NCBI RefSeq assembly: GCF_028283685.1 | Contig: NZ_JAPWKF010000007.1 | Location: forward strand, 1 to 64,000 | Length of the DNA stretch: 64,000 bases | Direction of reading: 5' to 3' | DNA from: Edaphobacter sp. | GTDB taxonomy: Bacteria > Acidobacteriota > Terriglobia > Terriglobales > Acidobacteriaceae | Part shown: positions 1 through 29,591 of the stretch, piece by piece | Position numbering within the stretch: position 1 is the first letter of the stretch | Layout: each line of letters starts with the position of its first letter | Program-made: the position numbers and the translations under genes | Notes under the pieces: model-generated | Told to the model about the DNA's origin: nothing | Seen by the model: only the letters and a program-made list of their open reading frames with translations | Databases searched by the model: none

Positions 1-39
1 GGACGACGGGGCTCGAACCCGCGACCTCTGCCGTGACAG
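1..39. repeat. Left attachment-site repeat (displaced tRNA-Asp 3' end)
   Basis: These 39 bases are identical to 29521-29559 and diverge at base 40. They cover the tRNA-Asp anticodon loop to near the 3' end. The copy has no 5' half and is not a functional tRNA gene. This is the fragment displaced when the element integrated. Confidence 0.88.
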
Positions 40-96
40 CTAAGCTGGATCGCGTAACTTGTTGATACTAGGCGTAGCGGATGGCTCCCTGAGCGC

Positions 97-140
97 CTTA
101 TTGAACCCTCGGCAACGGTTACTGGACCCTTAGCGGACCC
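97..140. repeat. Candidate integrase arm-type sites, left end
   Basis: TGGACCCTTAGCGGACCC at 123-140 matches TGGACCCTTATTGGACCC at 29445-29462 in 16 of 18 bases, same orientation. A related CTTATTGAACCC lies at 97-108. Repeats near both element ends are what lambda-type integrases bind as arm sites. The role is inferred. Confidence 0.45.
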
Positions 141-278
141 ACGACCTTTGCCCTCCAAACCTTTGCCCTGCTCTCGATTTTCCAGCAAATTTGGGCATTT
201 TTGCGGTCGATTTCGGCCGATTCCTCTGTCGCGGTAAGGCAGAGGTCGAAGGTCCAAATGATACTCCAATCACCGATT

Positions 279-295
279 GTTCCTTCTGGGGGAAC
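279..295. promoter_or_regulatory. Distal GTTCC-N7-GGAAC palindrome upstream of abiEi
   Basis: Bases 279-295 read GTTCCTTCTGGGGGAAC, with 5-bp arms and a 7-base spacer. A second copy with the same architecture starts exactly 65 bp downstream. AbiEi antitoxins are known to bind inverted repeats in their own promoter and repress it cooperatively, so this pair is the likely autoregulatory operator. Confidence 0.6.
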
Positions 296-343
296 TTTTC
301 GTGCAAACAATAACATCCCTACGTGATACCCTGTTCGCGTTTC

Positions 344-360
344 GTTCCTTGCGGGGGAAC
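344..360. promoter_or_regulatory. Proximal GTTCC-N7-GGAAC palindrome overlapping the abiEi ribosome site
   Basis: Bases 344-360 read GTTCCTTGCGGGGGAAC. The right arm ends three bases before the ATG at 364, so the G-rich arm is also the only purine-rich stretch available as a ribosome binding site. An mRNA hairpin from these arms could hide it. The copy supports the ATG at 364 over the upstream TTG at 277, which would place the operator inside the coding sequence. Confidence 0.55.
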
Positions 361-363
361 AAT

Positions 364-27519: not shown

Positions 27520-27633
27520 TGGACTGACGGCAGGCTGCGACCGCAGAACATGTTCGGCGGCTTTGCTGAAGTTCTTGCTTTCGGCAATTGCAACCAGGTA
27601 TTCCAGATGGCGAAATTCGATGATGTCTGACAT
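27520..27633 (-). pseudogene. N-terminal fragment of a LysR-family regulator
   Basis: From the ATG at 27633 the frame reads IIEFRHLEYLVAIAESKNFS, then KAAEHVLRSQPAVS, the classical LysR N-terminal helix-turn-helix start. After about 38 residues the similarity ends at the join with the conjugation remnant, and the frame stops at 27478. Only a third of the DNA-binding domain remains. Confidence 0.7.
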
Positions 27634-27912
27634 GGCCTTGATACTCCGCTGGCTGTGACGTCAAGACTCCACATCTCACTCGGGGGACGAGAGTCGATGT
27701 TGCACCTTTAATCGTTCAACTGGGAACCACATACGTCAATTAGTTTCGTTTGGGTTGCTAGGTTCCTACGCGGGTAACTAGGAACCAAAAGGTTCCTACC
27801 TCTATAGGCCAGCTATGCACAGAACTTTGAGTGGTATTGATGAGAAGTATTGGACGCGTATGGAGATCAGCGTCACTCTTGGAGTCGGGTATATCCCTAC
27901 AACGAGGTGAAC

Positions 27913-28161
27913 ATGTCTTCAGTCCTGTATGACGCTAAGGACTCGAATCCACTCGGGAAGAAACCACCTGCTTCTGCTGGAACCTTCACGCCGGAAAGAC
28001 TACTGGACAGTGACGAGGCGGCAAAGATCATGAATGTCCACCCGAAGACACTTCAGAAGCTCGCTCGCAAGGGCATTGTGCGGGGAGTCCATGTTGGGAA
28101 GCTGTGGCGCTTCCGCGCCTCCACGATTGAGGATTGGATTCAGAGCCAGCTCGCGAGTTAA
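27913..28161 (+). CDS. Excisionase-like helix-turn-helix DNA-binding protein
   Basis: 82 residues from the ATG at 27913, with GAGG seven bases upstream. ERLLDSDEAAKIMNVHPKTL, QKLARKGIVRGVHVGKLWRF and STIEDWIQSQL form the MerR-like winged helix of the excisionase/HTH_17 family. It lies 83 bp before the integrase in the same direction. Such proteins bend att DNA and favour excision, or regulate int. The N-terminal ~27 residues are low-complexity. The role as Xis is inferred from size, fold and position. Confidence 0.75.
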   Translation: MSSVLYDAKDSNPLGKKPPASAGTFTPERLLDSDEAAKIMNVHPKTLQKLARKGIVRGVHVGKLWRFRASTIEDWIQSQLAS

Positions 28162-28244
28162 TTCCCGCAACGAAGACTCGACCTTTGCCCAGCGTAGCGG
28201 TAGCCTAATATCAGCCATCCGTTGCGCCGAAGACAGGAGAGAAA

Positions 28245-29444
28245 ATGTCTAGGCGGACACGGTATCAGAATGGAAGCGTGCAGCGCGAAAAGCGCCAGAG
28301 TGGACCCGATGTATGGGTCTTTCGATGGTGGGAGCCTGGCTCTGATGGAACGAACAAGCGAAGGAAAGCAATCGTGGGAAATATCCTCACGTTGCCGACT
28401 GAAGCAATCGCCCTCAAAGCAGCTCGCGCGTTGCGCATCGACGCCAACTCACTAACCCCGCAGGTAGATGGCGGTCCGGAAACAATCGCAGACTTGGTGG
28501 CTCATTATCGTCTCAAGGAATTGAACGAAGAGAGTCACAGCCAAAAGGCGTTTCCGACACGAGCTGCCTATCAAAGCTATCTGGAGAACTGGATCTTGCC
28601 CCGCTGGGGTGGACTCAAGATGGACCAGGTAAAACCCGTAGCAGTCGAAGAGTGGCTGCGAGGGATCAAGCGGGCCAAAGCAACACGAGCCAAGCTACGG
28701 AATCTGATGAGCGCACTTTTCAGTCACGCGATGCGGTACGAGTGGACGGATAAAAATCCGATCAAGCTCGTGCGCCAGAGCGCTAAGCGAGAGCGCGTTC
28801 CTGATGTTCTCGAACTGAGAGAGCTTCAGCTTCTCCTCACCAAACTCGACACACGCGAGCGCACCTTGGTTCTGCTGGCTGCTGCCACAGGACTGCGCGT
28901 AAGCGAGCTGTTGGGGATTCGGTGGGCGGATGTGGACTTCGAAAGTCTTGAGCTGCGTGTAACCCGATCCATCTGGCACCAGAAGATCGGGGATTGCAAA
29001 ACGGAAGCTTCTGCCAAGCCTGTCCCACTCGATGGGTACATGGCGGAAGACCTGCTTCAGTGGCGAAAGAAGAGTCCTTATCCAACACAAGAGGATTGGG
29101 TCTTTGCCAGCCCGACCATGAAGGGGGAACAACCCTATTGGCCGGACAATCTGATGAAGCGGTACATCAAGCCGGTCGCCAAGGCGAACAGCATTTACAA
29201 GAACATCGGCTGGCACACCTTCCGCCATACCTTCGGCACGTTGCTGAAGGCGAACGGAGAAGATGTGAAAACCGTACAGGAGCTTTTACGGCACGCGAAC
29301 AGCAGGATCACACTGGATGTGTATACCCAGGCAGTGGGTTCCAATAAGCGCGCCGCACAGAGCAAGGTTGTAAGGATGATGATTCCCAGCGTGGGTCAGA
29401 AAGCGGGTGAGACGGACCCGCAGAAAGCTCATGTTGGAGCGTAA
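28245..29444 (+). CDS. int: Tyrosine-type site-specific integrase
   Basis: 399 residues. The N-terminal arm-binding and SAM-like core-binding parts (about 1-190) contain AVEEWLRGIKRAKATRAKLR. The catalytic domain has all residues: AATGLRVSELLGIRWADVDF (first Arg), KTEASAKPVPL (Lys), WHTFRHTFGT (HxxR), LLRHANSRITLDVYTQ (His and nucleophile Tyr). The gene ends 71 bp from the tRNA-Asp it uses as attachment site, and arm-like repeats start directly after its stop codon. It catalyses integration and, with the HTH protein, excision. It appears intact, so the element may still move if a second end is functional. Confidence 0.92.
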   Translation: MSRRTRYQNGSVQREKRQSGPDVWVFRWWEPGSDGTNKRRKAIVGNILTLPTEAIALKAARALRIDANSLTPQVDGGPETIADLVAHYRLKELNEESHSQKAFPTRAAYQSYLENWILPRWGGLKMDQVKPVAVEEWLRGIKRAKATRAKLRNLMSALFSHAMRYEWTDKNPIKLVRQSAKRERVPDVLELRELQLLLTKLDTRERTLVLLAAATGLRVSELLGIRWADVDFESLELRVTRSIWHQKIGDCKTEASAKPVPLDGYMAEDLLQWRKKSPYPTQEDWVFASPTMKGEQPYWPDNLMKRYIKPVAKANSIYKNIGWHTFRHTFGTLLKANGEDVKTVQELLRHANSRITLDVYTQAVGSNKRAAQSKVVRMMIPSVGQKAGETDPQKAHVGA

Positions 29445-29462
29445 TGGACCCTTATTGGACCC
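29445..29462. repeat. Candidate integrase arm-type site, right end
   Basis: TGGACCCTTATTGGACCC starts at the base after the integrase stop codon and matches 123-140 at 16 of 18 bases. It contains two GGACCC units 11 bases apart. Confidence 0.45.
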
Positions 29463-29514
29463 GGATTTGGCTGTCACTTGGGGTTGCCATAGCTTCTAAG
29501 TCCTTTAGAATCTA

Positions 29515-29591
29515 TGGCGGGGACGACGGGGCTCGAACCCGCGACCTCTGCCGTGACAGGGCAGCGCTCTAACCAACTGAGCTACGTCCCC
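29515..29591 (-). tRNA. tRNA-Asp (anticodon GUC)
   Basis: The minus strand folds as a complete 77-base tRNA: acceptor GGGGACG/CGTCCCC, D arm, anticodon stem CTGCC/GGCAG with loop CTGTCAC (anticodon GTC), T arm GCGGG-TTCGAGC-CCCGT, discriminator G and encoded CCA (29515-29517). It is the attachment site of the element. The element supplies the 3' half, so the gene stays functional. Confidence 0.95.
29521..29559. repeat. Right attachment-site repeat inside tRNA-Asp
   Basis: Identical to bases 1-39. It covers the anticodon loop to the acceptor stem. Recombination between the two copies would excise 29.5 kb and leave an intact tRNA gene. Confidence 0.88.

Follow-up and report, generated by a model that had tools for sequence, protein, structure and literature searches.

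The closest described counterparts of the locus analysed here fall into three groups. The tDNA islands of Islander (PMC4383910), in the part of that account compared here, combine an intact tDNA with a 3' fragment in the same orientation and an internal integrase over 2-200 kb, with divergence at the anticodon loop defining their class A. The integrative and conjugative elements (ICEs) with a VirB-type type IV secretion system (T4SS) form the second group (PMC3158045, likewise compared in part), and an excerpt of a review mentions ICEs of Acidobacteria. The third comprises the attachment (att) sites of lambda-like bivalent integrases (PMC4880445) and the attP of ICEMlSymR7A (PMC11963761), where the sections compared describe inverted core half-sites, arm repeats and a small helix-turn-helix protein of excisionase type. 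We studied a window of 64,000 nucleotides from Edaphobacter sp. (GCF_028283685.1, contig NZ_JAPWKF010000007.1, positions 1 to 64,000), and suggest that the DNA from the contig start to 29559 is very probably a single integrated element, what deletions have left of an ICE from an Acidobacteriaceae family whose insertion site is the anticodon loop of tRNA-Asp. Its anatomy is that of an Islander island, with an intact tDNA, a displaced 3' fragment lying downstream in the same orientation, the integrase inside, a length within 2-200 kb and divergence at the anticodon loop as in class A; it differs in that the far end of the fragment lies past a contig break and in that the left arm carries reiterated half-sites. 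Relatives at the same site resemble the VirB-type ICEs in having VirB4, 8, 9, 10 and 11, a coupling protein, a relaxase-type gene and an integrase, whereas the transfer genes of the window are deleted or fragmentary and the relaxase of the relatives is of the TrwC type. The att regions share inverted core half-sites, arm repeats and the small excisionase-type protein with the lambda-like and ICEMlSymR7A sites, but, as far as the compared sections go, the core-type sites of those systems lie at the crossover, while here one half-site recurs about 100-200 bp inside one arm.

An earlier note on this DNA, made from the sequence alone, had proposed a perfect 39-bp att repeat, and the repeat pair is real: bases 1-39 (minus strand), the displaced 3' part of tRNA-Asp, are identical to 29521-29559 within the intact tRNA-Asp(GTC) gene (29515-29591, minus strand), whose 3' part is contributed by the element. 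No third copy was found in window positions 1-33000 or in the whole genome. The length of 39 bp is nevertheless a cut value, because base 1 of the window is base 1 of contig C1 (1,002,044 bp) in an assembly of ten contigs and 4,787,281 bp. A comparison of all twenty contig ends in the assembly showed that the C1 start is abutted, without gap or overlap, by the start of contig C9: the C9 start, read towards its end, terminates in GGAATCTATGGCGG, and C1 begins with GGACGACGGGG. Side by side, the two ends form a tRNA 3' end as in the relatives, and the fragment-side att, running on leftwards into C9, then shares an identical block of 52 bp with 29508-29559; the block begins at base one of the anticodon loop and ends 7 bp past the 3' end of the tRNA. 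Joining the C9-side flank to the right flank in silico yields an intact tRNA. A crossover between the anticodon loop and the 3' end had also been proposed; the point of divergence, at the anticodon loop, is in line with the anticodon-loop class of site, but the exact crossover cannot be placed because the att block is identical throughout. A predicted stem-loop that includes the tRNA CCA end follows tRNA-Asp both in the window (29480-29520) and at the C9 start (L204), and since the stems differ in sequence the element appears to bring its own stem-loop. The GC content is 54.9% in the element and 58.9% in 29592-64000.

The tyrosine integrase (28245-29444, plus strand) is intact, matches Pfam Phage_integrase (4.9e-24), is 96% identical to the integrase of the element in the related genome G032 and contains R...HxxR...H...Y motifs, which we take to be the integrase signature. 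We kept 80 of 95 matched loci for a count of integrases and their sites. All 38 loci whose integrase is at least 65% identical have a tRNA-Asp att 79-196 bp downstream, as against one of the 42 loci with lower identity, four of which have less than 200 nt of downstream sequence. ARAGORN was run on 24 of these 42, and in 20 of them the integrase is closely followed by an intact gene for tRNA-Glu, -Ala, -Val or a tRNA-Asp variant. By their labels, 79 of the 80 loci are from acidobacteria or acidobacterial genera; the remaining one (L121), at the edge of a contig, is labelled Rhodanobacteraceae and may have been misbinned.

Att-bounded intervals were then sought among 61 genomes, our own included and genomes with two att copies on separate contigs left out. 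Nine were present at tRNA-Asp, that of the window and eight in seven relatives, measuring 48.5 kb in G032, 44.6 kb in G011, 38.1 kb in G027, 14.9 kb in G012, 28.9 kb in G021 and 26.6 kb in G028, with two head-to-tail intervals of 48.6 and 49.1 kb and three att copies in G023; the integrase of the second of these (G023b) is more distant, at 46%. Separately, L058 holds a very short att-bounded interval (3371-11335), with only about 7.9 kb between a fragment and an intact tRNA-Asp and with an integrase of the same type. Both ends of the window's element resemble the G032 element: positions 4-167, which extend into the family-conserved left arm (40-300), are 95% identical to its left end, and DNA comparison gives 90% identity for the right end (27522-29591), against 72% over 1.3 kb for the best G032 match of the neighbouring chromosome, tRNA aside, which lies elsewhere in G032, a contrast in keeping with transfer of the element between hosts. 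Together with the nine intervals and the site-tied integrase, these ends bear out the claim of an element integrated in tRNA-Asp. Among the matches seen, only G010 has the right flank of the window in the same place (75%). The DNA just past the tRNA (about 29814-30102) matches G012 (in two places), G027, G002 and G018 at 71-77% and is a candidate dispersed repeat or small gene.

That the element descends from an ICE is indicated by what is left of its backbone, in which the earlier note had recognised broken conjugation genes; Pfam and tblastn identify these as VirB11 and VirB8 fragments. The eight other elements supplied 282 predicted proteins for a comparison with the window (tblastn, E up to 1e-4), and beside the integrase and the excisionase-like gene the only backbone recovered consisted of VirB11, VirB8, ParB and LysR fragments; no relaxase homologue, as an integrative mobilizable element might carry, was found in this way, and oriT, the origin of transfer, was not searched. 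Of the set that defines an ICE (relaxase, coupling protein, VirB4, T4SS genes), the window thus has VirB11 and VirB8 fragments only, whereas the ends and backbone fragments of the element have homologues in more complete members at tRNA-Asp, as expected of an ICE-derived remnant. The VirB11 remnant (26817-27380, minus strand) comprises the first 188 residues, 89% identical to G032, in an open reading frame (ORF; 26334-27380) that continues into the joined ParB-end segment (26394-26815, by DNA comparison). It is followed by a C-terminal remnant of VirB8 (27425-27526, minus strand; 34 residues, 76%) and by an N-terminal remnant of a LysR protein (27523-27633, minus strand; 37 residues, 89%), the last two found by tblastn. 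The VirB11/VirB8 boundary piece spans 26816-27518, and the LysR start lies at the left edge of the right-end piece. A second, partial copy of the ParB-end segment lies at 24006-24387, as seen by repeat and DNA comparison.

The element of G032 provides the fuller counterpart, with VirB4, VirB11, a coupling protein, VirB10, VirB9, VirB8, RepB primase and ParB; its VirB6 match is weak and below the cut-off, and an ORF of 1216 residues clusters with a G027 protein that matches the TrwC relaxase model. In G032 the ParB-end segment matches at 10.2-10.4 kb, the VirB11/VirB8 piece at 36.5-37.2 kb and the right end at 46.5-48.6 kb, leaving gaps of about 26 and 9 kb between the three; in the first of the G023 elements (G023a), 26429-26815 matches about 14.3-14.7 kb. 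Since neighbouring remnants in the window match pieces of the backbone that lie far apart, we infer two deletions, at about 26815/26816 and about 27518/27522. No capsid, terminase or tail genes, as would mark a prophage, were found among the 35 element ORFs scanned with Pfam; PHROGs was not searched. The sequence of events would then be as follows: a tyrosine integrase joined an attP carrying the tRNA-Asp 3' part to the gene, which would have restored the tRNA at the right and displaced the old 3' part to the start of contig C1 and onto C9, and two internal deletions, as the order of the remnants suggests, removed the relaxase, the coupling protein and nearly all of the T4SS.

Tandem accretion is evident elsewhere at tRNA-Asp, either as more than one att fragment or as an integrase that has a fragment behind it in place of the intact tRNA: L085 has two fragment copies, L051 and L129 have fragment-side integrases, and G023 (L181-L186) has the three att copies mentioned above. 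It is therefore conceivable that two or more elements accreted at this site in the window and fused by losing an inner att, so that the cargo and the right-end backbone would have different histories. The interval of G021 (L173/L174), with ends of the GGACCC type at left and the GTGCCC type at right, suggests a hybrid of two elements and lends this scenario some plausibility. In the window, by contrast, two GGACCC direct repeats 11 bp apart, candidate arm-type integrase sites found as sequence repeats, occur both at left (at 124 and 135; 124-140, plus strand) and at right (at 29446 and 29457; 29446-29462, plus strand); these same arm repeats, and G032-like sequence (90-95%) at both ends, argue for one element rather than two fused, and no inner att copy is present in the window. 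We consider accretion improbable here. GGACCC pairs in both arms are also found in G032, G011 and G023a, and the word is in neither arm of G012, G028, G027 or G023b, where similar words are visible at similar places. An attempt to sort integrase N-termini by arm-repeat type did not give a clean division: G011 and G023a share GGACCC, yet over residues 1-75 they are 73-75% identical to the integrase of the window.

Beside the integrase lies an excisionase-like helix-turn-helix gene (27850-28161, plus strand; TIGR01764, 36.5 bits against a cut-off of 28.8), with relatives in seven of the eight other elements. Both genes are full length, in agreement with the expectation of an intact integrase and excisionase-like gene at the tRNA end. 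The arm repeats and the two att copies are intact as well, so that excision seems plausible; self-transfer does not. A more static interpretation, to which we assign an appreciable but minor share of the probability, is a fixed genomic island that is no longer mobile, its intact integrase reflecting recent or slow decay. The lost transfer module and the truncation of several cargo genes are in keeping with a fixed island, but the full-length integrase with its motifs, the full-length excisionase-like gene and att copies identical over 52 bp point the other way. Two contigs, moreover, break exactly at the fragment-side att, which could mean that alternative junctions were present in the sequenced DNA, though this is no proof. 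Other breaks in the assembly stand at att-like sites and may likewise reflect alternative junctions: the C6 start (L201) and C7 end (L207) abut within the anticodon loop of a tRNA that, judged by eye, resembles Arg(CCG), the C3 start (L198) lies in a tRNA-Met 3' fragment with an intact copy at C1:469362, and the C6 end (L212) is close to an integrase-like gene.

Several points weigh against the reading of the locus as a single integrated ICE remnant. The element is known from assembled contigs, with no attP or attB junction seen, and the assignment of the left flank to C9 rests on the abutment of contig ends, not on reads. Proteins of the first 8 kb of C9, compared with 19 left flanks of other genomes, gave no shared flank and two weak matches (24-26% identity). 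The last bases of this flank resemble element ends, so that another old element may lie to the left of the junction. The functions that the cargo described below would serve, namely defence together with electrophile or redox detoxification, are inferred from family names. As regards the flank, a DNA search of 41 genomes, our own included, likewise found none shared with C9, and no genome among those compared (19 by protein, 41 by DNA) combines the same left flank with an empty tRNA-Asp site; the efflux operon of the C9 flank sits elsewhere in G012, G011 and G021.

A further feature of the family emerged in the left arm. The att half-site ACCTYTGCC adjoins the crossover region at the anticodon loop, and a motif search of the window places two copies of its variant ACCTTTGCC within 144-167 (144-152 and 159-167, plus strand) and an inverted copy GGCAGAGGT at 238-246 (minus strand). 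Counted on both strands (as ACCTYTGCC or GGCARAGGT), the half-site occurs 41 times in the 22 distinct left arms compared (250 nt each), in 21 of the 22 (none in L076), against one copy in 38 right arms (48 before the removal of near-copies), 0.22 expected from the density in element bodies (13 per 322,564 bp) and a mean of 0.12 with a maximum of 2 in 500 dinucleotide shuffles, figures that overstate independence because the arms are related by descent, some of them closely in the first 100 nt. When the tRNA gene is taken 9-mer by 9-mer, enrichment in the Asp left arms is confined to words centred on GACCTCTGCC. The copies concentrate at about +104, +119 and +131, and inverted pairs, sought loosely, with up to 2 mismatches allowed in one half and 3 in the other, show a 7-bp spacer 11 times in nine arms and all other spacers from 0 to 14 together five times (11 of 16). 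The real core reads GACCTCTGCC-GTGACAG-GGCAGCGCTC, its 7-bp spacer being the anticodon loop, and the spacers of the dyad copies differ from GTGACAG. Tyrosine recombinases require matching overlaps, and the dyads should therefore bind rather than recombine with the tRNA gene, as far as can be judged from sequence.

We read the copies in the left arm as putative additional integrase-binding sites. Tentatively, and with slightly less than even confidence, we propose that this tRNA-targeting integrase family carries an extra array of core-type half-sites in one attP arm, copied from the tRNA target and sometimes arranged as dyads with a 7-bp spacer, which could bind integrase without strand exchange with the tRNA, as sites for loading, titration or control of direction. 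The window's own left arm, where two copies are direct and one is inverted, lacks a 7-bp dyad, which speaks against this proposal. The half-sites may instead be binding sites of the excisionase (recombination directionality factor) or a terminator hairpin, an alternative we regard as a serious contender albeit less probable: the direct copies at the three preferred positions resemble a direct-repeat array, and some inverted pairs form stems, but the motif is the exact half-site by the crossover region, the Asp arms are not enriched in any other stretch of the tRNA gene, and the dyads favour the spacer of the real core. Arms at other tRNA genes bear on the choice in both directions. The Asp half-site is absent from 14 tRNA-Glu arms, two of which carry the Glu half-site, in either case near +124 and perhaps through common descent, and one of two tRNA-Asp-variant arms carries its own variant, which argues against this alternative; in the tRNA-Glu arms, on the other hand, the word TCGAACCCGT (up to one mismatch) is commoner than the Glu half-site (three times in two arms versus twice in two), as the excisionase-site or hairpin alternative would have it. 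The single tRNA-Val arm has no half-site copy. That the half-site tracks the target in other tRNAs is thus suggestive only, and the dense array is a feature of tRNA-Asp.

The remainder of the element is cargo. AbiE had been expected at the end away from the tRNA, and family matches place AbiEi (antitoxin/regulator, 277-1215) and AbiEii (nucleotidyltransferase toxin, 1212-2048), both on the plus strand, within 277-2048. Pfam identifies four divergent pairs of regulator and oxidoreductase, with gaps between the ORFs as called of 159, 69, 135 and 3 bp respectively: a TetR regulator (3092-3709, minus) and a short-chain dehydrogenase (3869-4621, plus); an AraC regulator with cupin (6966-7961, minus) and a NAD-dependent epimerase/dehydratase (8031-8972, plus); an F420/NADP oxidoreductase-like protein (19771-20577, minus) and a TetR regulator (20713-21375, plus); and a flavodoxin-fold NAD(P)H quinone reductase-like protein (24984-25916, minus) and an HxlR regulator (25920-26357, plus). 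Other Pfam matches, on the plus strand, are an X-Pro dipeptidyl-peptidase-like hydrolase (8976-10865), a second epimerase/dehydratase (10873-11871) 48% identical to the first, an HxlR regulator (12038-12442), 48-52% identical by tblastn to HxlR-type genes of four related elements, an NmrA-like NAD(P)H-binding protein (13117-13971), an F420/NADP oxidoreductase-like protein (14115-14861) of which that at 19771 is a paralogue, a nitroreductase (16060-16842) and a GFO/IDH/MocA oxidoreductase (22788-23894); a peptidase M61 remnant (5925-6911, minus) matches the N-terminal domain only. Direct repeats occur inside the cargo at 5604-5729/21772-21897 (126 bp, 92% alike) and 17485-17587/19508-19610 (103 bp, 89%).

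This cargo had been called unusual, and relative to the rest of the genome that is partly correct: the element, 0.62% of the genome, holds two of its eight HxlR matches (P 0.001) and three of its 17 F420_oxidored matches (P 0.00015), both families having been picked after the cargo had been seen. A cargo unique to this element is rejected, given that the annotated parts of the elements in G032, G012 and G028 share the theme; their selected ORFs combine HxlR, TetR or AraC with short-chain, NmrA, F420-type, zinc or aldehyde dehydrogenases, and HxlR-type genes cluster across six of the nine elements. The scan of the relatives covered these three in part, with the cargo of G021, G023 and G027 left out, and two ORFs of G011 gave no Pfam match. 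The cargo of G032 (L175 10844-13229; L176 3696-16747) additionally has a reverse transcriptase adjoining a PLD-like protein, as well as a YhcG-type nuclease and HEPN-Swt1 and DruA-like proteins, all of them possible defence genes.

The element itself, of a known kind, adds a decayed member to an ICE family at tRNA-Asp. Among the matches listed from the open-access literature, no account of this family, of any other site-tied ICE family in Acidobacteria or of reiterated core half-sites was found, and the layout of the half-site array, not found described there, is the part worth testing. The locus reveals a site-tied family of acidobacterial ICEs with full, decayed and tandem members, a recurring redox and defence cargo, and a candidate new layout of the att site. 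If the integrase binds the reiterated half-site, the array would offer a way to study how direction is chosen, and self-integration avoided, by tyrosine integrases.

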